Below the pieces are notes generated by a model. The model was not told where the DNA came from. It saw only the letters and a program-made list of their open reading frames with translations, and searched no databases. A DNA stretch of 57,762 nucleotides, from assembly GCA_031267895.1 (NCBI GenBank), contig JAIRYF010000002.1:1-57762 (forward strand). Reading direction: 5' to 3'. This stretch comes from Candidatus Methanoplasma glyptotermitis. Its GTDB lineage: Archaea > Thermoplasmatota > Thermoplasmata > Methanomassiliicoccales > Methanomethylophilaceae. The position numbers and the translations under genes were made by a program. This document shows, in pieces, positions 531 to 50,859 of the stretch (positions within the stretch are counted from its first letter, which is position 1; each line of letters opens with the position of its first letter).

Positions 531-3053
531 TCACTGTTCCTTTCTGCGTTTAACGGAGATCTGTCCCGTCAGAGCTGCAGCGGCACATGCGAGGATCGCT
601 GCCGCTATGGCAATCGGAATCCAATAGGATATGCTGCTGCCGGACCCGTTTCCCGGATTGCCTCCGTTTCCTGAACCGATTCCGGAATCGTCACCGTTAC
701 CGCCCGTGTCTTTGCTGTTGTCGCTGCTGCCGTTATTGGTACCGGAACCATCTCCTGGTACTGCATTTACAGTTACTCTGATACTGATATCGGAACGTAC
801 ATCGGATATTCTGTACCACCCGTCTGTCTGAAGAACAATCTTCGCATTTCCGGAAACAACGGAAGGATATGCAACATATCCTTCCGGTGTCTTCACCTTG
901 AAGATAAGATTCTCTCCTTCCGTTACGGTCACCGATGAAGATGCAGAAGAACCGTTAACGTATACGGGATAGTCAGAATCGGAATCAAATACAACAGTAT
1001 ACTGTATCAGATGACCTGATACCGTCAGCAGGATGTGATCCTTTACTTCAGATATGTTTAACGGATTATCTTTGGAATCGTACACCGGAGACTCCTGTCC
1101 TTCTGCAGACCACTTACCGAATGCGTATCCTCTTGACAGCGAAGCGGTTATGGTAAGAGCATCGCCGTGCGTTACGGTGAAGGGTCCGGTGTACTCCGTA
1201 TTGCTTCCGTTGTTGACGGTGTATTTTAAACCGGAGATTCCGGTTTCTTTCGCAAGGGTTACGGTGTACTTGATCTTTGAAGCGGATGCCGTGAGAGATA
1301 TTTTTCCGGAAACCGATGATATATCTAACGGATTACCGGATCCCAAACCTCCCGACCACGCTTTGAGTTCGTATCCTTCCTCGAACAGAGCGGTTATCGA
1401 AAGAGCGTCGCCGTGACTTACGGCGAACGGACCTGCATATGATACAGAAGAGCCGTCACCGACGGTGTATTTGAAACCGGAGATTCCGGTTTCTTTCGCA
1501 AGGGTTACGGTGTACTTGATCTTCGAAGCGGATGCCGTGAGGGATGTGTTTTCGAATACTGGTGATACAGTCAACGGATTACCGGACCCCGAACCTCCTG
1601 ACCATGCTTTGAATTCGTATCCTTTCGACAGCAAGGCGGTTATGGTGAGTTTATCGTCTTGTCCGACGATAAAGGGTTTGGTGTATTCTGTGCTACTGCC
1701 GTTGTTGATACTGTATTTGAAACCGGAGATTCCGGTTTCTTTCGCAAGGGTTACGATATACTTACCGGTCTCCCATCTCAACGTATCATCCCATATGAAT
1801 CTTGCATCTCTGTAACGCAGTTCTCTTCCCGCGGCTCCCGCTATGCCTCTGTCAGAGCCAGTATCGTTGGGGTCATACACACTGCTGATATCTCTGAGCG
1901 TCAGAGACTCCACTACCAATGCATCAGGCAGTGTCCAATTCAAGTTATTCGCCACGCCCTTTTTGAAATATGTATCTATAATGCCGCCCGCAGCGATTTT
2001 TCCGTTATTGTCAAGTCCGCCCGTGATTGTCACCGATTTTAATTTGGCGCAATCTAAGAATGCACGGCCACATATGGATGCACTGTCTGGCATGGTTACA
2101 GATTTCAAATTTTTGCAGTTCCGGAATGCAGAGTCGCCGATGGATGTCACACTGTCCGGTATGACAATGGATATCAGGCCAGTGCAGTCCCTGAATGCGT
2201 CATAGCTGCTGATGGATGTCACACTGTCCGGTATGTCAATGGTTTCCAGGCTGGCGCAACTCATAAATGAATAGCCATGTATTGATTTTACGGTTTCCGG
2301 TATCGTCACATGCTGAAGACTGACGCAGCCGCAAAACAGATACAGACCGATTGATTCCACACCAGCCGGTATTTTTATGGATTCCAGAGCTTTGCAGCCT
2401 GCAAACACATAGCTACTCATGAATGTCACGTTGTCCGGCATTGTTATGGCTTTGAGTTTGATGCAGTCTTGGAATACTCCCACGCCTATGGTGCTCATGG
2501 TATTGGGCATTGTCACATACTCAAGGCCAAAGCAATTTCTGAATGCACTTTCGCCGATGGTTTCCATATTTTTCGGCATGACAACGGAGGTTAATCCGGT
2601 GCAGCCCTGGAATGCGCTGTTGCCGATAGACATCACGCTGTTGCCTATTGTCACGGAGGTTAGGCTTTTGTAACCATTGAATGCGTGTCCGCCAATATGT
2701 GTCACATCTGGCCCTATAATGACACAATTTATGTTTGCTTCATGTTCATACCACGGTGCCCTGGTACCGGGGTTGACATAGTAGTCGTTCATTTTACCGG
2801 TGCCGGATACTGTGAGAACGCCGTCGTCCGTGAAAGTCCACGTCAATCCGCCTCCGCATGTACCGCTGTTGATGTCAACAGCATCCGATTCGTTCGGTTC
2901 GGGGTATGTTATGAAGAATGCCGTTGCGAGAAACAAAGCAACGGCAAACAATACTGCTATACTCAAACGGCTCGGAAAATTGTAATTTTTCCGCCCCCCG
3001 CCCATTTGTGGTTTGGGGGATGAAAGGGTTCCTTTCGAATACTTCATATTCAT
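531..3053 (-). CDS. BspA-type leucine-rich-repeat surface protein with InlB-type B repeats
   Basis: A secreted, membrane-anchored protein of 840 residues. Residues 29-50 form a hydrophobic signal/anchor (core SIAVLFAVALFLATAFF). Residues ~110-355 are about ten 23-residue LRR_5/BspA repeats (pattern LTSVxIPxSVTSIGxxAFxxC). Residues ~410-690 hold three to four Listeria-Bacteroides B repeats (YTVTLAKETGISGFKY...). A Gly/Asn/Ser-rich linker follows, then a C-terminal membrane helix (~809-830) and a basic tail. The start is supported by gggag 9 nt upstream and a TATA-like taaaata at about 3090. Such repeats generally act in adhesion; the ligand is unknown. A G-rich stretch in codons 17-21 (gggcggggggcgg) sits where the second paralogue has an uninterrupted 12-G run. 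Confidence 0.9.
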   Translation of the reverse strand: MNMKYSKGTLSSPKPQMGGGRKNYNFPSRLSIAVLFAVALFLATAFFITYPEPNESDAVDINSGTCGGGLTWTFTDDGVLTVSGTGKMNDYYVNPGTRAPWYEHEANINCVIIGPDVTHIGGHAFNGYKSLTSVTIGNSVMSIGNSAFQGCTGLTSVVMPKNMETIGESAFRNCFGLEYVTMPNTMSTIGVGVFQDCIKLKAITMPDNVTFMSSYVFAGCKALESIKIPAGVESIGLYLFCGCVSLQHVTIPETVKSIHGYSFMSCASLETIDIPDSVTSISSYDAFRDCTGLISIVIPDSVTSIGDSAFRNCKNLKSVTMPDSASICGRAFLDCAKLKSVTITGGLDNNGKIAAGGIIDTYFKKGVANNLNWTLPDALVVESLTLRDISSVYDPNDTGSDRGIAGAAGRELRYRDARFIWDDTLRWETGKYIVTLAKETGISGFKYSINNGSSTEYTKPFIVGQDDKLTITALLSKGYEFKAWSGGSGSGNPLTVSPVFENTSLTASASKIKYTVTLAKETGISGFKYTVGDGSSVSYAGPFAVSHGDALSITALFEEGYELKAWSGGLGSGNPLDISSVSGKISLTASASKIKYTVTLAKETGISGLKYTVNNGSNTEYTGPFTVTHGDALTITASLSRGYAFGKWSAEGQESPVYDSKDNPLNISEVKDHILLTVSGHLIQYTVVFDSDSDYPVYVNGSSASSSVTVTEGENLIFKVKTPEGYVAYPSVVSGNAKIVLQTDGWYRISDVRSDISIRVTVNAVPGDGSGTNNGSSDNSKDTGGNGDDSGIGSGNGGNPGNGSGSSISYWIPIAIAAAILACAAAALTGQISVKRRKEQ
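1055..1770 (-). repeat. DNA-level tandem B repeats inside the surface gene
   Basis: Near-identical blocks encoding YTVTLAKETGISGFKY recur at about 1228-1300, 1468-1540 and 1716-1765, with a period of about 240 bp. The identity at DNA level suggests recent duplication or gene conversion within the gene. Confidence 0.7.
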
Positions 3054-4972: not shown

Positions 4973-6335
4973 CACCGACCCGATTGGCAAATCCGTTAAT
5001 AAATCTTGGCAAAGACATTCCGCACCAGTCACGGATTCAGAATTTGATTTATGCTTCTGCCATTCCGGTTACCGAAACTGAAAGACAATCAATATTTTGC
5101 AAAAACGAGGCTTATATTCAGATACAGCGTTAAAATTGGAACAAATATTCACTTAAGAATGTATGCTATTATATATCCTATATTCCTGTATTCTAAAAGG
5201 ACATTGTCTTGATCCAGCGGAACTCATACGTCGTGGGAGGAAAATGTATGAGCAGTAATTGCGCCGGGATTGTCTTTTCATGCTGGCATTCCCGGAAGTC
5301 ACGACAGTGTCCGTTCATTGCACCCTGCACCCGGCGGCGGCACAGTCATGATAAACGCGGATCGGATCCGAGATTCCGATGCCTCTCCTGTTACAGAAAT
5401 CAAATTACTCATCCGCCGGAAGACCGCGATACAACCGACAGGCTGAATGTAAGCACATGTACGCTGCATCCGAGCCGAATGACGCGCTGATCCGTGTCTG
5501 CAGACGGGGTGAGAGACTCTGCCAGCCGAAATTCTATCCGGCAGCCGGGACTTCGGATACTGTTCCGACATCAAAATCATTCTGTAACTCCGGGTTTACG
5601 GCGACGAAGAGGGAGAGCGCGGTATAGATCGGTGTGCGTTCCCCATCCATGCTACGACGGTAGCCGCTGGTATTTTAACGGATCGCAACATGGCCGTGAC
5701 AACAAAAAGCATGATTTCCGCGTATCTGTTTTCGAGGTCCGAAGCATCTGCGGCAGCAACAGAGCGTTTGGAATTCTCCCCGACTGCGGTCCCGGCACGT
5801 TGGTCCTCTCCTGCAAAGGATAAGAAATTCAGAGTCCTGACTGCTCGAATTTCAGAAAGGAACCACTCGAAGTGAAATTACGGCGGATCGGCCGTCGGAA
5901 CTTGCGAAGAACGGATTCTCTGCAGATTCGTGTGCCGTCCTCCATCTTAACAGGAGGGAGTATTCCGAACACTCCGCAACGTCTGCGAATGCCTGGAGCA
6001 TTCCGACACGAAACGGCTCGGACTCACTCTGCTCGCGGACCTCGGCTCATTCGTGCCCGGAATATGATCCCAAATACATAAACACCCGTCTATAGACGGC
6101 GGGACCTCTTCGATTTACTGTCTGCGACATATCTCCTCTCCACATTCTCCATATATCTCCCGAAACATACCTCGCATTTCCGCCGGCACCGTCCGTTCGA
6201 ACATGTGTTCAGGCAGCCGCATTCAAACTGCAATTCCCCTAGGACCCGGCACCCCTGATCTGTCGACAATATGTGCGAAAAACAGCATTTTCCCAATAAC
6301 AGTTATATAGTTTTCTATCCATTGGGGGAAACCTT
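4973..6335. other. Long gene-poor region, probably decayed sequence
   Basis: About 1.3 kb in which all open frames are short, rich in Arg/Ser/Cys and unlike any family I know, so I call no gene. Its right part ends in a motif typical of IS200/IS605 right ends (listed separately). An AT-rich block lies at 5140-5205, and a TATA-like gttatatag at 6302-6310 serves the gene at 6336. The region may be the remains of an insertion that lost its coding capacity. Confidence 0.5.
6074..6109 (+). mobile_element. Relic of an IS200/IS605 (TnpB) right end
   Basis: In the frame starting at 6071 the sequence encodes IHKHPSIDGGTS. This matches the peptide-like signature that many TnpB/IS605 right ends show, because the 3' hairpin (and omega-RNA) overlaps the end of tnpB. 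The DNA contains the perfect palindrome ccgtctatagacgg (6086-6099) followed by cggg, the expected subterminal hairpin. Upstream frames are broken by stops, so no transposase is left. Recognition is from memory of the family, without a database search. Confidence 0.45.
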
Positions 6336-20827: not shown

Positions 20828-23664
20828 TCAGCCCTTCCTGTGTCTGACGAAAGTATGTCCAATCAGAACTGCCGCGATACAGGCAATGAACACTCCGGCT
20901 ATGAGAATCGGAATCCAATAAGATACACCGTTGTTGCCGGATCCGGTTCCCTGATTGTTTCCTGAATCATTACCGTTGCCGGAGTCTTCTCCTGAATCGC
21001 TTCCGGGACCGCTGTCCAAACCATTGCCGTCACCGCCGTCTGCGGTTACGGTTACGGTTACACGTACATTCGAATAAATCTCGGATATTCTGTATGATCC
21101 GTCCTTATGTTCCGAGAGACTGGCTATTCCCTCTATGCTCAGAACTGCACGGTATCCTTCCGGTGTCTGCACACGGAAAAAAGCACTCGCTCCTTCCGTT
21201 ACGGTTAACGGCGAAGATGCAGGAACCCCGTCAACGTATACTGTATAATATGAACCGGAACTGAATGCAATGCTGTAGTACGTATCCGAAGGAGACAGAG
21301 GAACGGGTACAAGGGAAGCATGTGCTGTTAAGGCTGTGTCTCCGGATACTGATGATATCTCTAATAGATTTTCTTCGGAATCCGAACCGGACCACGCTTT
21401 GAATTCGTATCCTCCCACGAACGAGGCGATTATTACGATTTTATCGCCGTGTTCCGCTTTGAATGGTTCAATGTAACCGACGGCTTCGCCGTCATTGATA
21501 CTGTATTCGAAACCTGAAACACCTATTCCTTTCGTGAGGGTTACGGTGTACTCGTTGATTTTAAGATCGATGCTCTTCCCGGGAATCTCTGCGTTCACGG
21601 TAACGTATGCCGTTCCTTCCTCCTGATGGTATCCCGTTACGGTATCAACCGTTATGCTACCGGATGTTCCGTGAGGAACGTTCGGTATGGTGTAGCTGCC
21701 ATTATCATCGGTGGTTACGGGACCGTATGTTATATCTGATACCAAGGATACTTCCACATTCGGTACTGCCGTCCCGCCTGCGGTGACGGTTCCGGATACT
21801 GAGTACTTATTGATTTTCAGATAGAGGTTCAGTCCGGAAAATGATACATTTACAGTAACGGATACGGTTCCCGTCTGATGGTATCCCGGTACGGCTCCGT
21901 CTGCTATAGTTATATCAAGGGATGTTCCGTAGGGAATACCGGATATGGTATATTTTCCGTCTCCGTCTGTTACTGTGTTACCGGTAAAGGATGCATTATC
22001 TGTGTAGGATACTGCTACGTCCGCGGGATCTCCGCCCGTTATGGTTCCCGATACCGTATACTCGCTTGCGCTCAGACTGATATCTTTACCGGTCACGTTT
22101 TCAGAGGATACGGTCACATTTGACAGCGTACTTGTATCGTATCCTGTTTTGGATGCTTTTATGTCTCCGGATGTATTGCCAGGAACATTTGCTATTGTGT
22201 ATTTTCCATCTGAACCTGTGACCGCAGTATACATTCCGGTTGTTCCCAGGGATACTGTTGCGCCTGCGATCCCTGCGGTCGGATTGCTGCTGTCTTTAAC
22301 GGTTCCCGATACGGCATACAGCGATGTAACTTCAGTCCATGATAAACCATCCCACTTGAATACGGCATCTTTGAAATGCAGTTCTTTTCCCCCGAGTCCT
22401 TTTATGTTGTCAGGGCAGTATTCCGAAGAATTGATATCCGGGAGGTACAGGTAACTTGCGACCAAGCCGCTGTTCGGGAATCTCCACTGACTCGACTCAG
22501 CATTTTTGAAATACTTGTCTATGATACCTCCTTCAACGGTTTTTCCCTCAGCGAGTCCGCCTGTGACTATTACGGATGTCAGGCGGTTGCAGTTATAGAA
22601 TGCGTAGCTGCCTATTGTTTTCACACCGTCGGGTATGACTATGTAAGCCAGGTTGGAGCAACCGTTGAATGCATTGTTGCCAATGATCGTAACTTTGTTC
22701 GGTATTATGACGGATGTCAGAGCCGTGCAGCCTTGGAATGTCGCATCGCCGATGGATGTCGCACCTGGCATGTCAACAGATGTCAGGCTGGAGCAACCGT
22801 TGAATGCATTGTTGCCAATGATCGTAACTTTGTTCGGTATTATGACAGATGTCAGAGCCGTGCAGCCTTGGAATGTCTGGGCACCGATGGTTGTAACTTT
22901 GTTCGGTATTATGGCTGATGTCAGAGCCGTGCAGCCTTGGAATGCAGCCATGCCGATGGTATCCACGCTGCCCGGTATCTCGATGTATGTCAATTTATTG
23001 CAACCATAGAATGCCTGAGCACCGATTGTTTTCACACCGTCGGGTATGACTATGTATGTCAGGTTGGTGCAGTTTTGGAATGCCGCCATGCCGATGGATT
23101 CCACGCCATCGTGTATCATCAAGTCTTTGAGGCTGGCGCAACCCGTAAATGTCCAGTTGCCGATGGTATCCACGCTGCCCGGTATCTCAACCGATGTCAG
23201 ATTAGTGCAACCATAGAATGCATAGTTTCCGATGGATGTCACGCCATAGGGTATGACTACGGATGTCAGATTAGTGCAACCGTTGAATGCATAGTTTCCG
23301 ATGGATGTCACGCCAGATTCGATTATAACATCCGTTATGTCCGTTCCATATTCGTCATACCATGGTGCCTTATCACCAGTAGAGTTGGGATTGACATAAT
23401 TGTCCATGCTGCCAGTACCGGATATCGTCATAATGCCGTCTGTAAAGTCCCATGTCAAACTTCCCGTGATCCCGCTTGCGGCATCCGACTCATTCGGTTC
23501 GGAATACGTCACAAAGAATGCTGCTGCGAGAAAGAGAGCAGCCGTGAATAGTACTGTTACATTCAGACGGCGGGAGAAGTTATAATTTCCCCCCCCCCCC
23601 TGCGCAGGCGGTGGGTCTTGACGGAAGAGGAATAACCGATTCCCTTCAGAGATTTTGTATCCAT
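20828..23664 (-). CDS. BspA-type LRR surface protein, signal peptide out of frame at a poly-G tract
   Basis: The main frame (894 residues from GTG 23512) has ~13 BspA repeats, three CarboxypepD_reg-like beta-sandwich modules (YAVSGTVKDS, YTVSGTITGG, YSVSGTVTAG), one B repeat, a Gly/Asn/Ser linker and a C-terminal helix with tail RHRKG. It lacks a signal peptide. The same frame continues upstream without a stop as NYNFSRRLNVTVLFTAALFL..., matching the first paralogue's signal segment. The natural ATG (23664, with gaaggtg upstream) is in another frame; the frames are separated by a 12-G run at 23589-23600. A run of 13 or 10 G would give a full ~945-residue secreted protein. As written the gene is off, or the run is mis-called. 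Confidence 0.85.
22640..22960 (-). repeat. Recently amplified LRR units
   Basis: Two nearly identical blocks of about 100 bp start near 22650 and 22788, a spacing of 138 bp (two 69-bp, 23-codon LRR units). They differ by only a few bases before diverging, and a third partial copy follows at about 22886-22945. This suggests recent tandem duplication inside the array. Confidence 0.75.
23589..23600 (-). repeat. Run of 12 G (minus strand) in the signal-peptide region: candidate phase-variation tract
   Basis: Twelve consecutive C on the plus strand encode the Gly run just before the signal peptide. By coordinate arithmetic, the ATG frame and the body frame differ so that +1 or -2 G restores continuity. 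Runs of this length are prone to replication slippage. The first paralogue has the same Gly stretch but broken by C bases. Confidence 0.8.
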
Positions 23665-24003
23665 GGGTTGTTGCACCTTCTGTGTTTTACTGAAGCACCG
23701 TTTACACTGCGGTGCATGCAGGGTGGTGTACCCGGGTGCGCGTATATATAATGCACGTAAGCCGCGCAAATTGTACTTTGTGTGTCTCCGTAAAAGCCGA
23801 TTTGTGCATATAACAGGGCATCGGTATCCGATTGTTTCCGGTTTCTCATTGTCGGTTTCGGCATGCGGACACAGAGCACCTGCGGACGGCAGGGAACAGC
23901 CGCTTCCCTCCTTGTACCGTACATTCTGTCCAAAAGAATCCCGGCACACCGAACGCGGTTGCGAAAACTAATAAGAGACAAGACCATTACCCGGTGGGGA
24001 CCA
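23665..24003. promoter_or_regulatory. Divergent region between the surface gene and purM
   Basis: 339 bp with no credible gene. A TATA-like attatatata lies near 23745-23755 (minus strand), about 85 nt before the surface-gene ATG, so a 5' leader of roughly 60 nt is likely. For purM, ggtgggg lies 4-5 nt before the ATG. Frames that extend purM upstream are not family-like. Confidence 0.45.
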
Positions 24004-42120: not shown

Positions 42121-45099
42121 TCATGACAGCCCAACATATCTTTCAAAAAATTCCATGAGTTTTTCCGTGATGATTGCTTTTTTCTCCCCTCTTCTGCTCT
42201 CTTTGGAAAACATCGATATAGGCAGCATGATCTTATTGAAATCCATTCCGTTTGTTCTCAGCATCCCGTCGCGGAATGCGCGACCGATGAATGTTTGCGT
42301 TTCTTCGGCTTTCAAGCCTTCTTCGATAACGATCCTCTCCAGATCTTTTTCCTTCCTTATGTGCACGAATCTTTCCCACTCTGCGTCAACGTTGGTATCC
42401 GTGTTCACAGAGGCGATGAACTCCTCGATAAGTTCCTTCTTGCTCCGGAGCTTTATGCTGGAAAGTATCGCTTTTGATATGTCTTCTTTAATAACCTTAT
42501 CTTCACACCCAGATCCTCTGTATTTCTCAACCAACATCAGGATATAATCGATGTTGACCTCCGTCTGCTTTATGAGTTCCACTTCGAAAATGAGTTCGCC
42601 GATTATATTCTCCTTATCAACTTTCTTCCCGCTGTAATCCTGATACAGATCAATATACACACTCTGAAACTCCTGGAAATCTCTGGGGGACAATATCTCC
42701 TCATCTGCAAACTCGTCGAAAGATGACAAAATGTTTTTCAGTCTGAGTATGGCGCCGAAAAGTTTGATGAAATTTTTTTCATTCATCTCGCCCAATATCG
42801 GTTCCGAGAATCTTTCCTCCAACTCGCATATCTTCTTTTCATATTCGATATAGTAGTCCTTGTACGGTTTCAGAAGAACTATTCCGCCTGCATCCTTGTT
42901 CCCAAACAGTGCTATCGCATCATCCACGGCCTGTTCCAGGCCTCTGAAACATACGATATTTCCATATGTTTTGACGCTGTTCAGTATGCGGTTGGTCCTT
43001 GAGAACGCCTGTATCAGTCCATGCTGTTTCAGATTTTTATCGACCCACAGAGTATTCAGAGTGGTCGCATCGAATCCGGTGAGGAACATGTTGACCACGA
43101 TGAGCAGATCTATCTCCCGTTCCCTCACTCTTCTTGACAAATCTTTGTAATAGTTTCCAAATTTATCTCCAGACGAGTCGAAATTCGTTTTGAATGTTAC
43201 ATTATAATCGACTATCGCAGAATCCAAAAAGTCCCTGGAACTTCGATCCAATCCTGATGCATTCGGATCCTCATCCGGAAGGGTGTCCGAATCATCATTT
43301 GGTGCGAAACTGTATATCAGAGCGATTTTAAGTTCATTACCGCTGATCTCATTCTGTTTTTTCAGCTCCGCATAATATCTTTTGGCAGCATCTATCGATG
43401 CGGTCGCCAATATTGAATTGAATCCGGACAGTCTCCGATCTCCGAGATTATAGTAGTTGTTCCTTTTTGTTTTCTGACTGAAGTGCTTCAGTATGTACTC
43501 TGATATTTTCTTTACGCGCTCGGGGGCGCACAGTGCCGTCTCACGGTCAATCGCACGCACCTGTGTGTCAAAAATCCTGTCTGATTCCCTGACAGTATCC
43601 ACATAATCTATGCGGAAGGGCAGAACATTGCCATCATTGATTGCATCCACGATCGTATATGAGTGGAGCTTCTGACCGAATGCCTGCTCAGTTGTTTTGA
43701 GAACGGGATTCTTGCCTCCGCCGGCATTCGCAGCAAATATGGGAGTCCCCGTGAATCCAAATATGTGATATCTTTTGAATTTCTTGATTATGGCAGCATG
43801 CATATCACCGAACTGGGAGCGATGGCATTCATCGAAGATCATCACAACATGTTTATCATATACACAGTGGGAACGATTCTTCTTAACGAACACACTTAGT
43901 TTCTGAATAGTCGTTATTATGATCTTGGAATTCAGACTGTTATCTTCCAATTGTTTCTGGAGTATCTTAGTATCGGCATTGCCGTTGGCCGCCCCTTTTT
44001 CGAATCTGTCGTACTCTCTCATTGTCTGATAGTCAAGGTCTTTGCGGTCAACCACAAAAAGCACTTTGTCAATGAAATCAAGACCTCTTGCAAGCTGTGC
44101 GGTCTTGAAGGACGTGAGAGTTTTACCTGATCCGGTTGTATGCCAGACATAGCCTCCGGCTTCTGCAGATCCCATTGTTCTGTAATTGTCGGACATTTGA
44201 ATTCTCTGGAGGATACGTTCAGTAGCTGCAATCTGATACGGACGCATTACCAGGAGCATATCCTCTGCGGTGAACACGCAGTATTTTGTCAAGACGGAGA
44301 GAACGGTGTGCTTGGCAAAGAAGGTCTTCGTGAAATCGACCAGATCGGGTATGGCCTTGTTCGCAGCATCCGCCCACCAGCTTGTGAACTCAAAACTGTT
44401 GCTTGTTTTCTTGGTGCGCCTTGTTATGTCTGTCTCTCTGATATGCTGTTCCCGGGTGGTGTTAGAATAATATTTTGTGTGGACTCCGTTGGAGATGACA
44501 AATACCTGAATATAATCAAACAACCCTGAACCGGACCAGAAACTGTCCCTCTCGTATCTCTTAACCTGATTGAATGCTTCTCTTATTGCAACGCCCCTTC
44601 GTTTGAGTTCAATGTGGATGAGGGGGAGACCGTTGACAAGAATTGTAACATCGTACCTGTTGATTCGTGCACCTTCGGCTTCGTACTGATTTATGATCTG
44701 CAGGCAGTTGGCGTGGATATTTTTCTTGTTGATCAGAGAGATGTTTGTGCTGTGTCCGTCATCGCATTTCAAAACACGGACATGATCGATTTGCATCTTC
44801 CTTGTTTTTTCGACGATGCCTTCGTTTGCATTGGCTATATGTTCGCTGAAAAACCGACCCCACTCCTTATCACTGAATTGGTATGAATTGAGTCTCTCCA
44901 GCTGATATCTGAGGTTAAGTATCAGATCTGCTTCATTCTTGATATCAATGTATTCATAACCTTGCTGGCACAGTGTTTCGATAAACTCTTTTTCAAGAGC
45001 GGCCTCGCTCTGATATTCATGCGACCTGTCCCTGTCTGGAACATATTCGGAAACAACGGTTTCCTCATCTGTGCTGGCAATGATATTGTATGAGCTCAT
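42121..45099 (-). CDS. hsdR: Type I restriction enzyme R subunit (HsdR)
   Basis: 992 residues. N-terminal PD-(D/E)XK nuclease (RYDVTILVNGLPLIHIELKR), then SF2 translocase motifs: Walker A TTGSGKT, DECH box (MIFDECHRSQFG), motif III (FTGTPIF), and the C-terminal helical region that docks on the methylase. It translocates and cuts unmodified DNA as part of HsdR2M2S. Last gene of the eight-gene island; its start overlaps the stop of the DUF1016 gene. Confidence 0.96.
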   Translation of the reverse strand: MSSYNIIASTDEETVVSEYVPDRDRSHEYQSEAALEKEFIETLCQQGYEYIDIKNEADLILNLRYQLERLNSYQFSDKEWGRFFSEHIANANEGIVEKTRKMQIDHVRVLKCDDGHSTNISLINKKNIHANCLQIINQYEAEGARINRYDVTILVNGLPLIHIELKRRGVAIREAFNQVKRYERDSFWSGSGLFDYIQVFVISNGVHTKYYSNTTREQHIRETDITRRTKKTSNSFEFTSWWADAANKAIPDLVDFTKTFFAKHTVLSVLTKYCVFTAEDMLLVMRPYQIAATERILQRIQMSDNYRTMGSAEAGGYVWHTTGSGKTLTSFKTAQLARGLDFIDKVLFVVDRKDLDYQTMREYDRFEKGAANGNADTKILQKQLEDNSLNSKIIITTIQKLSVFVKKNRSHCVYDKHVVMIFDECHRSQFGDMHAAIIKKFKRYHIFGFTGTPIFAANAGGGKNPVLKTTEQAFGQKLHSYTIVDAINDGNVLPFRIDYVDTVRESDRIFDTQVRAIDRETALCAPERVKKISEYILKHFSQKTKRNNYYNLGDRRLSGFNSILATASIDAAKRYYAELKKQNEISGNELKIALIYSFAPNDDSDTLPDEDPNASGLDRSSRDFLDSAIVDYNVTFKTNFDSSGDKFGNYYKDLSRRVREREIDLLIVVNMFLTGFDATTLNTLWVDKNLKQHGLIQAFSRTNRILNSVKTYGNIVCFRGLEQAVDDAIALFGNKDAGGIVLLKPYKDYYIEYEKKICELEERFSEPILGEMNEKNFIKLFGAILRLKNILSSFDEFADEEILSPRDFQEFQSVYIDLYQDYSGKKVDKENIIGELIFEVELIKQTEVNIDYILMLVEKYRGSGCEDKVIKEDISKAILSSIKLRSKKELIEEFIASVNTDTNVDAEWERFVHIRKEKDLERIVIEEGLKAEETQTFIGRAFRDGMLRTNGMDFNKIMLPISMFSKESRRGEKKAIITEKLMEFFERYVGLS

Positions 45100-46151
45100 T
45101 GATTGCCACCGAACGTTTCATCTAATTTCCTCAGTTTGAATATCTCTTTCTGCGCCTCGATCTCGGCGCGGAGTTCCTCCTCAGAAGGAAGGAATAATTT
45201 GTATTTAGAGGCAAAGAGCTGTTTATTGTCTCGAAGTACCGAATAGCGGGCGATATCCTTATCGGTATCTGTACAGAGAACTATACCGAGTGTTGGGTTG
45301 TCTCCCTCCACCCGCTTAAGCTCATCATACATACGGACATACATGTCCATCTGCCCCACATCCTGATGCGTAACCTTAGCGGTTTTCAGATCAATAAGCA
45401 CATAGCATTTCAGATAAATATTATAGAAAACAAGATCAATATAATACTCTTGTTTTTCTGTGTGGATATGCTGTTGGCGCGCCACGAAAGCATATCCTTT
45501 TCCGAGCTCCATCAGAAATTTCTGCAAATTATTGATTATACCAGTTTCCAGATCCGACTCGTTGTAATCGCTGTTTTCGGAAAACCCTAGGAATTCTGCA
45601 ATCACCGGATCTTTGATGAAGATCAGTCTGTCTGTCTCGTAATCCGCAGCCAGTTCTTTAATCTCTCCTTTGACAGGTTTTGCATCGGGGGCCTTCAGCA
45701 TACGGCGGTAGTACTGAGTACTGATATTTCTCTGAAGCGTCCTAACACTCCATGTCTGCTCTGCTGCCTCCTGAAGATACCAATTTCTGGCATTGCTGTC
45801 GTGTACCTGCAGAAGTATCCTGTAATGCGTCCATGATAACAGCTGTGAAGATTGTTTACTCACTGAGTAAAAAATCTCAGGAAACACTCTGTAAAACTGC
45901 GTACGACTGTGCAGATTGGAGTCCGAGCATCCTTTGCCAGTCTCCACAATCCTCGGCATATTCTCCTTTACGGTTTTCCTCAGCGATGCGTTTCTCGATA
46001 AAGGCTGCCTGCGCTGAAGCATCGTGACATTGACCGAACGGAACGTTATTTCGCTTGAAGTATCTGCAGTGGCACGATGGCCTTTGACAAAGTCATCTAT
46101 CAATCTGAGCCGGGAGATCATGTTTGTGTCGTCGTGCACCGCCTGATTCAT
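45096..46151 (-). CDS. DUF1016/YhcG-type PDDEXK nuclease, N-terminus apparently frameshifted
   Basis: 351 residues. The C-terminal half is a clear DUF1016 (PDDEXK) nuclease: D in YIDLVFYN and DLK in VLIDLKTAK. The middle has the family's LSWTHYR and WSVRTLQRNISTQYY. The DUF1016_N part is disturbed: AAFIEKRIAEENRKGEYAE, which fits the family, is encoded in another minus frame at about 45961-46020, while family-like sequence in the main frame resumes at GKGCSDSNL (about 45945). A frameshift plus a short deletion is likely. Such proteins often sit inside Type I systems. The ATG overlaps the hsdS stop. Confidence 0.8.
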   Translation of the reverse strand: MNQAVHDDTNMISRLRLIDDFVKGHRATADTSSEITFRSVNVTMLQRRQPLSRNASLRKTVKENMPRIVETGKGCSDSNLHSRTQFYRVFPEIFYSVSKQSSQLLSWTHYRILLQVHDSNARNWYLQEAAEQTWSVRTLQRNISTQYYRRMLKAPDAKPVKGEIKELAADYETDRLIFIKDPVIAEFLGFSENSDYNESDLETGIINNLQKFLMELGKGYAFVARQQHIHTEKQEYYIDLVFYNIYLKCYVLIDLKTAKVTHQDVGQMDMYVRMYDELKRVEGDNPTLGIVLCTDTDKDIARYSVLRDNKQLFASKYKLFLPSEEELRAEIEAQKEIFKLRKLDETFGGNQ

Positions 46152-46702
46152 GGGTGTGCCTCCTCAAATCTAAATAGTCTGTCTCTGTAGCATTCATATT
46201 GCTTACGACGGGCGGAAATCTCGGCTGGAAGACCGACAGAGATATCATTCAAAAAAGATTCGAATTCGTCCAAGATGGAAACTATTTTATTTTGATCCTC
46301 AACTGCGGGCACTGGTATGAGATAATCCATAATGGCATCCTTATCGCCGCGGGGCATCTTAGCACCCTTAGAGTGCTGCACATTGTAGTCAAAAAAATAG
46401 TCCGATGACAACACATGGTACAGGTATCTGGCATTAACCGTGCGATCATTATGGTTCAGCCTTATTACAAGAACATCTCCGTTCGTTCCGCCATCGCGAT
46501 CTGCAAACCATATCTTTTTCAAATAAGGGCGTATATTGCCGATTAAAATGTCTCTCTTCTTAAATTGGACATGATTTCCCGACTTGGGAACACACCCTGA
46601 GTCTGATCTTCCGCCCCTGTTGGAAATTAAATTATCTACTCCAACATAGTTGGATGGTGTTAACTCAGAAAAATTTATTTTTATTTTAGGGAAGAATGTC
46701 AT
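46148..46702 (-). CDS. hsdS: HsdS C-terminal half (second target-recognition domain)
   Basis: 184 residues holding one target-recognition domain and its conserved helix (IPVPAVEDQNKIVSILDEFE ... RKQYECYRDRLFRF). This repeats the helix that ends the N-terminal half. The ATG overlaps the stop of the N-terminal half (ATGA), so it may be made as a separate half-subunit. With one extra G in the upstream run the two halves become a single frame joined through RATFRRLGK. It reads as the distal part of a normal two-domain specificity subunit. Confidence 0.88.
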   Translation of the reverse strand: MTFFPKIKINFSELTPSNYVGVDNLISNRGGRSDSGCVPKSGNHVQFKKRDILIGNIRPYLKKIWFADRDGGTNGDVLVIRLNHNDRTVNARYLYHVLSSDYFFDYNVQHSKGAKMPRGDKDAIMDYLIPVPAVEDQNKIVSILDEFESFLNDISVGLPAEISARRKQYECYRDRLFRFEEAHP

Positions 46703-47352
46703 TTTTCCGAGTCTCCTGAATGTTGCTCTCCCCCCCCCCTCTGGTCAAAGGTCAGCAGTTTGTTGCGGTAATACTCATATTGTTTTTTTCTCAATTCCAG
46801 CTCAGATTCCAGCTCAGATTCCAGCTGGGTGAATTTGTCAAGGATGCAGGCAATCTCCTGCTGGATTTCGAGTGGGGGAATTGGGATCAGGATAGACTTC
46901 AGTTTCGTGTCACTGGAATGAACAACTTTGCTCTTCACACAACCTCTGCTTTTTTGTCTTTGGATATCATCAGTCGACAGAACATAGGCCAAATACTTCG
47001 GATTTTGTTTATGCTTCATCACAATAATATCGCCACCCGCAAAACAACAATCTCTGCCCATGTATGCACATGATTTTGCTATTTCATTTACACTCTCACC
47101 CGTTATTGCAAAGAGAATATCGCCATATTCGAATGTTTTCAAACCGCTTTTTGTACGAGACACACAATCTTCAAACCATATCCCATAAGTTGTGTAGATT
47201 TCACCGTACCTGACACATGGCTCTCCGTCTTCCGTTATCTCATCGCGTCTGATCCCAGAGCCGCGATACATGTCTGTTGCGATTTCTCCAAGTGTTTTGT
47301 ATACCACCCCATCTGGACACAGTTTGAGGATCAATTGTTCCAATCTGCTCAT
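46699..47352 (-). CDS. hsdS: HsdS N-terminal half (first target-recognition domain), ends just after a poly-G run
   Basis: 217 residues with the usual HsdS beginning (MSRLEQLILKLCPDGVVYKT), target-recognition domain 1 and the first conserved helix (LIPIPPLEIQQEIACILDKF ... RKKQYEYYRNKLLTF). The frame passes the 10-G run (46730-46739) and stops 10 codons later. Three ELES-type repeats lie in the spacer helix. The intact gene would be 401 residues, the standard HsdS length. This subunit sets DNA sequence specificity for both methylation and restriction. Confidence 0.88.
   Translation of the reverse strand: MSRLEQLILKLCPDGVVYKTLGEIATDMYRGSGIRRDEITEDGEPCVRYGEIYTTYGIWFEDCVSRTKSGLKTFEYGDILFAITGESVNEIAKSCAYMGRDCCFAGGDIIVMKHKQNPKYLAYVLSTDDIQRQKSRGCVKSKVVHSSDTKLKSILIPIPPLEIQQEIACILDKFTQLESELESELELRKKQYEYYRNKLLTFDQRGGGEQHSGDSEK
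46730..46739 (-). repeat. Run of 10 G between the two halves of hsdS: candidate phase-variation switch
   Basis: Ten consecutive C on the plus strand. With 10 G the upstream frame ends at a TGA that overlaps the downstream ATG. With 11 or 8 G the frames fuse into full-length HsdS. The location, between the two recognition domains, is where slippage would toggle between half-subunits and a full specificity subunit. Confidence 0.8.
46792..46827 (-). repeat. Three 12-bp tandem repeats in the HsdS spacer helix
   Basis: Units of 12 bp encode QLES, ELES, ELEL in a row. In the EcoR124 family the number of such four-residue repeats in the central helix sets the spacing between the two halves of the recognition site, and changes by recombination. 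This array is in the equivalent place. Confidence 0.75.
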
Positions 47353-48262: not shown

Positions 48263-49283
48263 CTCTAGATAGCTCTGAATTACTAGAATCTGTACCTTCC
48301 TGATTCTTCGACAGTTGCTTCACCGCACGATCGAAATCGCTCTCGAGCTGTCGCATCTCACGTGCCCGGTATATCTCAAACTCCTTCTCCGCTTTCTCCA
48401 ACGCCTGTTTGTGGGAGATCTTGCCTTTGCCTGTAAGGACCTGCCGTTTCAGACTGACGATCTGATTATCAAGAGCAGATATCCAATCATTCATGGTCAT
48501 CGGATTCTGCTCCAGTGCCTGAAATTCCGCAAAATCCAGGAACTGAGATACGAGCAGATTCAATCTCTGCAATTCGATCTCCGACAGGTAATTTTTGGCA
48601 ATCTTGACGTCGTCCCTCATTATATAATCGCCTTTGAAGTTCGTCATTCCAACAAGCGGTTTCTCATTGTTCGCTCTATCGTAAATGACTTCGGCCGCAG
48701 TATGTTCGTGAACCGCAAAATGCAGTTTATTTTGTACTGTCGCAAAGAAATTTTTTGTCAAATCCAAGCGAGGATCATAGTCTGTTGCCGTGGCATAGAT
48801 ATCAGTTATCTGCTGATAGAAATTCCGCTCACTGCTACGAATGTCACGGATGCGCTGCAGCAATTCACGGAAATAGCGCGAACCGTTACCTTGTTTCAAC
48901 CGCTCGTCGTCCATGACGAATCCTTTCTGTATGTACTCGTGCAGTCTCTCTGTCGCCCAGCGTCTGAAACGTGTTGCGATCTGAGATTGGGCGCGATAGC
49001 CAATCGCAATCACCACGTCCAAATTGTAGTGATCGACGTTACGTCTGACTTGTCTGTCTCCCTCTGTTCGAACCAACAAGTATTTCTTGTGAGTTGCTCC
49101 GTCGGACAGTTCGCCATCTGAGTATACGTTGCTTATGTGCAACGCAACATTCTGTTGCGTAGTATCATATATCTCCGCAATCTGTTTTTGCGTGAGCCAG
49201 ATATCCTCGTCGGCAAAACGGACGGATACTTTTGTTATCCCATTATCGTCCTGATACAAGATTATCCTGTTATCTTCATCCAT
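48246..49283 (-). CDS. rhuM: RhuM-family protein in the RM operon
   Basis: 345 residues. The N-terminal RhuM (virulence) domain is clear: VRFADEDIWLTQKQIAEIYD, then VDHYNLDVVIAIGYRAQSQ and FRRWATERLHEYI. The C-terminus is a long coiled coil (KALEKAEKEFEIYRAREMRQ-like). The N-terminal part resembles phage antirepressor DNA-binding domains. RhuM genes are frequent passengers of Type I systems; the function is unproven. The start at ATG 49283 has gagggag upstream and overlaps the hsdM stop. Confidence 0.88.
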   Translation of the reverse strand: MDEDNRIILYQDDNGITKVSVRFADEDIWLTQKQIAEIYDTTQQNVALHISNVYSDGELSDGATHKKYLLVRTEGDRQVRRNVDHYNLDVVIAIGYRAQSQIATRFRRWATERLHEYIQKGFVMDDERLKQGNGSRYFRELLQRIRDIRSSERNFYQQITDIYATATDYDPRLDLTKNFFATVQNKLHFAVHEHTAAEVIYDRANNEKPLVGMTNFKGDYIMRDDVKIAKNYLSEIELQRLNLLVSQFLDFAEFQALEQNPMTMNDWISALDNQIVSLKRQVLTGKGKISHKQALEKAEKEFEIYRAREMRQLESDFDRAVKQLSKNQEGTDSSNSELSRGEPDE

Positions 49284-50859
49284 CGTTCCGATCTCCCTCA
49301 ATATCTGCTATTATCTTCTCGATCTCCTCGCGCAGAACGTTCTCTCTTGCGACGATCTCCCTGATCTCTGCGTTCAGTTTTACGATATCGATCTCTTCCC
49401 GAGTGTCCTCTTTCTCAACATACTGATTAACAGACAGGCTGTATTCTTTGGATGAGATTTCCTCGTTCGGGACCAATCTGGAAAAATGATCCTCGCTCAT
49501 TCTCTCTTTGTATGCCTCTAAAATCCTGGATATGTTCTTGTCTGTCAGTTTGTTACTGTTGGTGATTTTCACAAATTCCTCGCTTGCATCGATAAACAGC
49601 GTAGAATTCTCGCTCTTCGATTTCCTGAGGACAATTATGCACGTTGCGATCGTTGTTCCATAGAACAGATTTTCCGGCAACTGGATTATGCAGTCGATGA
49701 AATTGTTGTCCACGAGGTATTTTCTGATCTTCTGTTCGGCACCCTTCCTGTACAATACGCCGGGGAACTCGACTATCGCCGCAGTCCCGTTCGTTGAAAG
49801 CCATGACAGACAATGCATAACAAAAGCAAGATCCGCTTTGGATTTCGGTGCGAGTACCCCCGCGGGAGAGAATCTCGGATCATTTATCAGCAGCGGATCG
49901 GAATCGCCTTTCCATCTTATGGAATAAGGAGGATTGGAAACAATCGCTTCGAAAGGTTCATCATCCCAATGCATCGGCTCGGTCAGAGTGTCTCCGTGGG
50001 CGACATCAAACTTATCATAACCAATATCATGCAGGAACATGTTGATCCTGCATAGGTTGTAAGTTGTGATGTTGATCTCCTGCCCAAAGAATCCCCGACG
50101 GACGTTGTCCTTTCCGAGTATCTTGGCAAACTTCAGCAACAAAGATCCGGAACCGCATGCCGGATCATACACCTTGTTAACTTCCGTTTTCCCGACCAAC
50201 GTGATCCTTGTCAGCAATTCTGAGACCTCTTGAGGAGTGTAGTACTCTCCTCCGGATTTGCCTGCGCTGCCCGCGTACATTCCCATAAGGAATTCGTAGG
50301 CATCACCAAACGCATCGATCGTGTTATCTCCGTACCTCTCGTTGAGTTTCATCTCGGCAACGCCGTTCATCAGATTCACCAGTCTTCCGTTGCGTTGAGC
50401 GACCGTTCCGCCGAGTTTATTGCTGTTTACATCCAGATCATCGAACAATCCTTTGAAATCATTCTCACTCTCCGTTCCTTTCGCGGAAGCCTCGATATTG
50501 CTGAAGGCCCGTTCCAGGGTCATGTTTAGGTTCTCATCCTTTTCCGCCCTTTTGAGTACGCTGCAGAAAAGTTCACTGGGAAGAATGAAAAATCCTTTTG
50601 TATCCACCAACTCGGATCTTGCATTTTCCGCATCGGTATCCGGCAGTTCTGAGTATCTGAAGGCTGCATTTCCTGCCTCGCGTTCATTTCTTTCGATGAA
50701 CTCAGACAGATTCTCGGAGATGTAACGGTAAAAGAGCATACCTAACACATATTGTTTGAAATCCCATCCGTCAACGCTTCCCCGGAGGTCATTGGCAATA
50801 TTCCATATTACGCGGTGAAGTTCCGCACGTTCCTGTTCTTTTCTGTTATTCTCAGCCAT
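49276..50859 (-). CDS. hsdM: Type I DNA methyltransferase subunit (HsdM)
   Basis: 527 residues. N-terminal HsdM helical domain (LRGSVDGWDFKQYVLGMLFY), SAM site DPACGSGSLL and N6-adenine motif NPPYSIRW. It methylates adenines at the site chosen by HsdS and protects the host. The C-terminal tail is a coiled coil that contacts HsdS. Second gene of the island, directly behind the HARE-HTH gene. Confidence 0.96.
   Translation of the reverse strand: MAENNRKEQERAELHRVIWNIANDLRGSVDGWDFKQYVLGMLFYRYISENLSEFIERNEREAGNAAFRYSELPDTDAENARSELVDTKGFFILPSELFCSVLKRAEKDENLNMTLERAFSNIEASAKGTESENDFKGLFDDLDVNSNKLGGTVAQRNGRLVNLMNGVAEMKLNERYGDNTIDAFGDAYEFLMGMYAGSAGKSGGEYYTPQEVSELLTRITLVGKTEVNKVYDPACGSGSLLLKFAKILGKDNVRRGFFGQEINITTYNLCRINMFLHDIGYDKFDVAHGDTLTEPMHWDDEPFEAIVSNPPYSIRWKGDSDPLLINDPRFSPAGVLAPKSKADLAFVMHCLSWLSTNGTAAIVEFPGVLYRKGAEQKIRKYLVDNNFIDCIIQLPENLFYGTTIATCIIVLRKSKSENSTLFIDASEEFVKITNSNKLTDKNISRILEAYKERMSEDHFSRLVPNEEISSKEYSLSVNQYVEKEDTREEIDIVKLNAEIREIVARENVLREEIEKIIADIEGDRNDG

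Follow-up and report, generated by a model that had tools for sequence, protein, structure and literature searches.

Introduction

The Opa proteins of Neisseria are beta-barrels whose genes are switched by slippage of a repeat near the signal peptide. About 11 opa genes are described as undergoing phase variation (PMC3745409), and poly-G contingency loci are described in surface-protein and restriction-modification genes of Neisseria, Campylobacter and Helicobacter (PMC11868660, PMC5084427, PMC6321876). In the NgoAV system of Neisseria gonorrhoeae, according to one account, a poly-G tract cuts HsdS down to a 208-residue N-terminal part, and loss of one G fuses both hsdS genes and changes the specificity of the enzyme (PMC9577141). 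The random on/off design based on G-runs is known from bacterial pathogens and has hardly been looked for in archaea. An older survey that included 18 archaeal genomes mainly reports poly(A) and poly(T) tracts (PMC2831843), and the literature that we searched, consisting of open-licence PMC papers only, yielded no archaeal precedent for phase variation by slippage. A 2025 review asks why genomes rich in phase-variable loci seem restricted to pathogens and suggests that extending surveys to archaea may inform the answer (PMC11868660).

Here, we describe a locus in a 57,762-nucleotide stretch of DNA (the window) from the methanogenic archaeon Candidatus Methanoplasma glyptotermitis, whose draft assembly comprises 1,717,415 bases in 72 contigs at 50% GC. 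Judging from its sequence, this archaeal locus is very probably phase-variable (a contingency locus) and belongs to a set of about 45 like switches.

Results

A 12-G run separates a leader from the body of a predicted surface protein

The locus lies on the minus strand and proceeds from an ATG (23664-23662) through 21 leader codons and exactly 12 G into a long body (Table 1). The original prediction had placed a start codon with a ribosome-binding site 5′ of the run, and the signal peptide with the whole body 3′ of it in another frame. Both features are present: the run occupies 23600-23589, and the body frame, which begins at codon 23587 with NYNFSRRLNVTVLFTAALFLAAAFFVTYSEPNESDA, is free of stops from the run onward for 919 codons. 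The first paralogue in the window reads NYNFPSRLSIAVLFAVALFLATAFFITYPEPNESDA at the equivalent place, so the homology claimed for the two signal segments holds. By frame arithmetic, leader and body are joined when the run length is 1 mod 3, that is, at 10 or 13 G, as had been proposed. At 12 G the leader frame instead stops at 23565-23563, and the off-state peptide has 33 residues rather than the 38 first given.

The body consists of a putative signal peptide, BspA-type LRR_5 repeats, carboxypeptidase-regulatory-like domains, a Gly/Asn/Ser-rich linker, and a C-terminal hydrophobic segment with a basic tail. Its LRR_5 repeats (Pfam, 1.1e-93) place it among the BspA-type LRR surface proteins. 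The signal peptide and the putative C-terminal membrane anchor were read by eye from the translation. The 8-G word has eight matches in the window, a count equalled in 0 of 100 shuffles.

Table 1. Features of the window and related loci.
Feature	Position or locus	Strand	Remarks
TATA-box-like TTATATATA	23743..23751	-	About 80-90 nt 5′ of leader ATG; read from the letters
Ribosome-binding-site-like AAGGTG	23674..23679	-	SD-like word
Leader ORF in the 12-G state, MDTKSLKGIGYSSSVKTHRLRRGGGEIITSPAV	23563..23664	-	33 aa, then TGA (off state)
12-G run	23589..23600	-	Proposed slippery switch
Body frame	20828..23587	-	919 codons + stop; Pfam LRR_5 1.1e-93, CarboxypepD_reg 5.4e-20
Signal-peptide signature, 36 residues	23480..23587	-	Defines the paralogue family
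First paralogue	531..3053	-	Locked in frame; run interrupted (GGGCGGGGGGCGG at 3003-2991)
HsdR	42121..45099	-	Pfam HSDR_N, T1R_D3-like, EcoR124_C
HsdS second half	46148..46702	-	Methylase_S; start overlaps first half's stop (ATGA)
HsdS N-terminal half	46699..47352	-	Methylase_S; 217 aa as assembled
Second long run of the window, 10 G	46730..46739	-	Between two HsdS specificity halves; Methylase_S in both
HsdM	49276..50859	-	Pfam N6_Mtase 7.7e-113, HsdM_N 5.6e-22
Run-less paralogues L116, L115, L117	G000 C28, C63, C46		Leader-ATGA-signal peptide
Apparently coupled loci of G014	L120, L126, L133, L134, L138, L141, L143, L146, L149, L150

Long G-runs are far more frequent than chance predicts

The assembly contains 94 runs of at least 10 G, 76 of them of at least 11 G, and three runs of at least 10 A. 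In 1.72 Mb at 50% GC, chance would supply about 2.5 runs of at least 10 G and likewise of at least 10 A. The focal locus has what marks a contingency locus, a long simple repeat near the 5′ end of an ORF at a frequency above chance. These lengths are taken from a draft in 72 contigs where homopolymer miscalls are possible, and 16 of the 94 runs lie less than 200 nt from a contig end. Reading the sequence around all 94, we found that 45 fall between the leader and the signal peptide of a single family, with the Gs on the coding strand in every case.

Among the other 49 runs, Pfam searches of 19 pieces gave family assignments that include HsdS, a D12 adenine methylase, a ResIII gene, two Peripla_BP_2 proteins, two further LRR_5 proteins, a CBM_X2 protein and a zinc-ribbon protein. 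Many of these runs are in or near no clear long ORF (for example L013, L027, L060 and L056); long G-runs of this kind may act on promoters or be neutral. At L061 (minus strand), the family leader and a 13-G run stand ahead of an unrelated CBM_X2 surface protein. With a family leader in front of an unrelated body, the 5′ cassette seems to be modular.

Most family members are out of frame

Copies of the family share one order: TATA, AAGGAG and ATG come first, then a leader of 16-23 residues, of which MNIKPLKGIVYSSSVNTPRPY is an example, followed by 10-13 G and lastly by NYNFPSRLNITVLFAAALFLAAAFFVTYSEPNESDA and the long surface protein. The leader ATG is readable in 42 of the 45. An SD-like word, mostly AAGGAG, lies at most 18 nt from it in 40 of these 42, and a TATATA or TTATAT word occurs no more than 120 nt upstream of the leader in 37. 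Frame fusion requires a run length of 1 mod 3 in 37 of the 42 copies, of 0 in two and of 2 in three. As in a contingency locus, a change of one unit moves the ORF between open and closed, here by frame arithmetic only.

Run lengths in the 45 copies are 11 (22 copies), 12 (20), 10 (2) and 13 (1). The original prediction named a single out-of-frame length in all relatives as the sign of a simple pseudogene; this is not the pattern among the paralogues, whose runs have 10, 11, 12 and 13 G. Only four of the 42 readable copies are in frame (L036, L039, L057 and L081:4759) and 38 are off. In-frame copies are rarer than one third (P 3.5e-4) and rarer than the 16.6 expected from the lengths of the other runs (P ~3e-5, by simulation). 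Two more copies, L029:7429 and L068, have an alternative upstream ATG that would be in frame; we did not count these because the conserved SD context is missing.

Run length also varies between copies that are otherwise nearly the same. Fourteen pairs match at 86 or more of 90 flanking bases, and in 10 of them the runs differ in length at flanks that differ by 3.3%, a comparison between paralogues and not between strains. All eight pairs checked lose their similarity within about 100-150 nt upstream, which makes them distinct loci.

Homopolymer lengths are error-prone in a draft assembly, and all true runs might have in-frame lengths that were miscalled. Some runs do look artefactual, such as those of up to 83 G at contig ends (L142, L145 and L140) in G014, a genome of the same genus. 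However, any constant offset that rescued the 11-G class would fail for the 12-G class, and three of the five leaders with another frame need are off as well. The runs, moreover, are found at homologous places and not at read ends. We consider a sequencing artefact very unlikely.

Bodies downstream of the runs remain intact

The bodies are open for at least 180 codons in 33 of the 45 copies; 21 of these reach their own stop, and 12 leave the fetched stretch or the contig. Each of the 21 ends, by eye, in a hydrophobic stretch followed by basic residues. In a further 10 of the 45, a contig end truncates the body. The last two, L046 and L079, break off early, after 138 and 55 codons respectively, and this counts against our best explanation. 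In 19 pairs with more than 60% identity, the median dN/dS of the bodies is 0.45 (range 0.38-0.67) at a dS of 0.4-0.9. Codon constraint in the leaders is weak, with 388, 371 and 445 differences at positions 1, 2 and 3; this is a further point against our best explanation and is not used as support.

If the family were dead, its copies would be frameshifted pseudogenes and the runs leftovers, as both the out-of-frame majority and the two broken bodies might suggest. A pseudogene family would, however, have lost constraint and open frames. Instead, open frames of at least 300 codons persist in 31 bodies despite the divergence at synonymous sites, dN/dS is about 0.45, and breakage is confined to the two copies named. 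Promoter, SD word and leader have been kept as well, and so, in 37 of the 42 copies, has the need for 10 or 13 G. A dead family is hardly credible on these grounds.

Intact bodies behind out-of-frame runs are also what one would see if the proteins were always made by recoding, with the ribosome or RNA polymerase slipping on the G-run so that the frame in the DNA is of little consequence. Transcriptional slippage can occur on long homopolymers. A programmed ribosomal frameshift would have a fixed shift direction at a conserved site, but a single such shift would fail here, since copies with 11 G and copies with 12 G would have to be shifted in opposite directions. G014, described below, also applies a different frame logic to this type of run. 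Recoding of every copy appears improbable, while two-way transcriptional slippage may add leaky expression. The excess of off copies would also fit genes that are permanently silenced or rescued at a low level by transcriptional slippage. Slipped-strand phase variation of an archaeal surface repertoire is the simplest account of these sequences and our best reading of them.

Copies without an intact run point to an ancestral layout

A search with the 36-residue signature that ignored the run found 51 copies in the same genome, 43 of which have a run of at least 10 G; the other two of the 45 copies with such a run escape the search because a contig end truncates them. Three of the 51 are fragments or cut at a contig end, and five lack an intact long run. 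One of the five is the first paralogue (531-3053), which has a leader and signal segment of the focal type and is in frame throughout, with a C breaking its run. Another has 6 G and no usable start. The remaining three are run-less, and all three have an ATGA in which the leader's TGA and the surface gene's ATG overlap. This layout is likely ancestral to the switched family. The signature was not found in the other 100 genomes of the taxonomic family searched, and matches in other genomes were limited to two weak ones in G008. Signature A2 gave 553 pattern matches in genome contigs and 101 in viral contigs, none of which tblastn confirmed.

The run-less paralogues, which start at an ATG just 5′ of the signal peptide, invite the view that the true start is 3′ of the run in all copies and that the leader is a separate peptide; G014 retains the same overlapping layout. 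But that ATG is missing from the 45 run-bearing copies. None of them has an ATG within the first 22 codons 3′ of the run, three being readable for fewer codons. A TTG or GTG does occur within those 22 codons in 17 of 45, which counts against our best explanation, but starting the focal protein at its GTG (23512) would skip the signal peptide. A downstream start is highly improbable, and we retain the leader ATG as the start in the phase-variation reading.

Long G-runs occur in more than one arrangement in related archaea

The best matches to purM are in MAGs at 75-78% identity, several of them named Candidatus Methanoplasma. One of these, JAISVN010000105.1 (L154), carries an InlB-like protein of 862 codons at the same place as in the window, divergent from purM and preceded by a leader, 10 G and a signal peptide. 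Its SD-backed ATG needs 11 (or 8) G, so it is off at 10 G; another upstream ATG would read through. Within 80 purM loci, L154 (10 G) and L189 (9 G) contain the only runs of at least 9 G.

G014 has short leaders with 11-14 G at ten loci. In one of the three phases, the leader's stop lies at exactly +1 and overlaps the surface gene's start codon, forming ATGA or, in a single case, GTGA. At nine loci, both remaining phases terminate 49-84 nt before that point; in L133, one phase ends 49 nt earlier and the other continues in frame with the surface gene. Three loci are in the overlapping phase (L126, L134 and L149), the main ORF of L134 having only 99 codons. LRR_5 was present in all three bodies searched. 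From their sequences, these leaders are apparently a case of phase-variable translational coupling. We read 49 runs in G014; the counts omit those at contig ends in L137 and L148, as well as those of L140, L142 and L145, which also lie at contig ends and, with 11-83 G, are likely artefacts.

Other genomes are more varied. In G029, from another family of the order, the signal peptide is directly followed by the run (MKNKAKLILASAVFVAALMLLVPLAQTDMS-Gn), and the states are mixed; secreted-type proteins with this arrangement and mixed phases are seen at L257, L258 and L261-L266, and an acyltransferase with two G-runs at L255. None of the four runs read in G007, out of nine, had the surface-gene design. 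Two of the three runs read in G005 also lacked it, and the third (L273) follows a signal-peptide-like start and is in frame. In G003, where we read 22 of 37 runs in 20 stretches, surface-type genes are mixed in-frame and out-of-frame, and they are not counted as support for the leader design. The on/off design that the original prediction recognized from host-associated bacteria is borne out by 45 similarly built paralogues, with different run lengths at different places in the genome, and by relatives, with the corrections that the organism is an archaeon and that a role as antigens is only a possibility.

MutS was not detected in any of 41 genomes of the order, with positive controls matching in 11 of 14. 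NucS gave no match above the cut-off in the same 41, with one weak match in G036 and controls matching in 7 of 14. Any run of at least 11 G was present in 22 of the 41 genomes examined, in widely varying numbers. An order-wide absence of both proteins would permit long runs but cannot account for their being numerous in some species only.

Long G-runs also split restriction-modification genes

The second long run of the window lies between the specificity halves of hsdS, accompanied by hsdM and hsdR (Table 1), the arrangement expected of an NgoAV-like locus. A RhuM-family gene and an ORF without a Pfam match lie between hsdM and hsdS, and a YhcG-type nuclease gene between hsdS and hsdR. Elsewhere, the D12 adenine methylase (L016:2484) and the ResIII-type gene (L029, minus strand, run at 5014 of the reverse complement) are split by runs of 11 G and 12 G, respectively, both out of frame. 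Together, the runs in hsdS, the D12 methylase and the Res-like gene suggest that DNA modification may switch too.

Discussion

We propose that the runs change length by replication slippage that is left unrepaired; the lack of repair is suggested by the failure to find either MutS or NucS. At 10 or 13 G, the ribosome would translate leader, oligoglycine and signal peptide in a single frame, and the LRR protein would be displayed on the surface, held by its C-terminal membrane anchor. At 11 or 12 G, translation would end, usually 1-8 codons 3′ of the run. Since lengths cluster at 11-12, most copies would be off by default, each about one slip from on, and each cell would read a small random subset of the repertoire. 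Such switching would presumably be reversible and would probably have an ecological role; a host, viruses or grazers may select for the variation.

With moderate confidence, we extend this to a wider picture: a near-silent repertoire of about 45 genes, few of them shown per cell at random; switching of DNA modification; an order without detectable MutS or NucS; a coupling switch in a sister species; and a run-less ancestor of both designs. One switch would then exist in two designs among sister species, by frame fusion in one and by switched coupling in the other.

The genome is a case in point for the question raised in the recent review, as a gut-symbiont-related archaeon with as many candidate loci as classic pathogens. 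The apparent restriction to pathogens becomes a testable question, with the same runs in the same gene classes (surface proteins and restriction-modification) and no known pathogenicity. The mechanism is of a known kind; what is new is the archaeal host, the size of the family with its bias toward off, and the coupled variant in a sister species.

As in the poly-G loci of Neisseria, Campylobacter and Helicobacter, run length sets the frame and the repertoire spans many loci. Unlike those, the present loci belong to an archaeon, have an archaeal-type promoter and are mostly off, and nearly half of the runs (45 of 94) belong to one family, where the run stands immediately 5′ of the signal peptide at a distance of 16-23 codons from the ATG. 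The Opa system is similar in that scattered paralogues would each be switched singly by repeat slippage, but the repeat here is a mononucleotide G-run, copies are about four times more numerous, and the products are membrane-anchored LRR proteins. LRR_5, CarboxypepD_reg and InlB_B-like domains are shared with BspA-type LRR and InlB-like surface proteins, whereas expression here appears to be tied to a G-run cassette. Finally, the window's HsdS follows the plan of NgoAV, its halves separated by a poly-G run, and differs in being archaeal and in starting its second half through an ATGA overlap.
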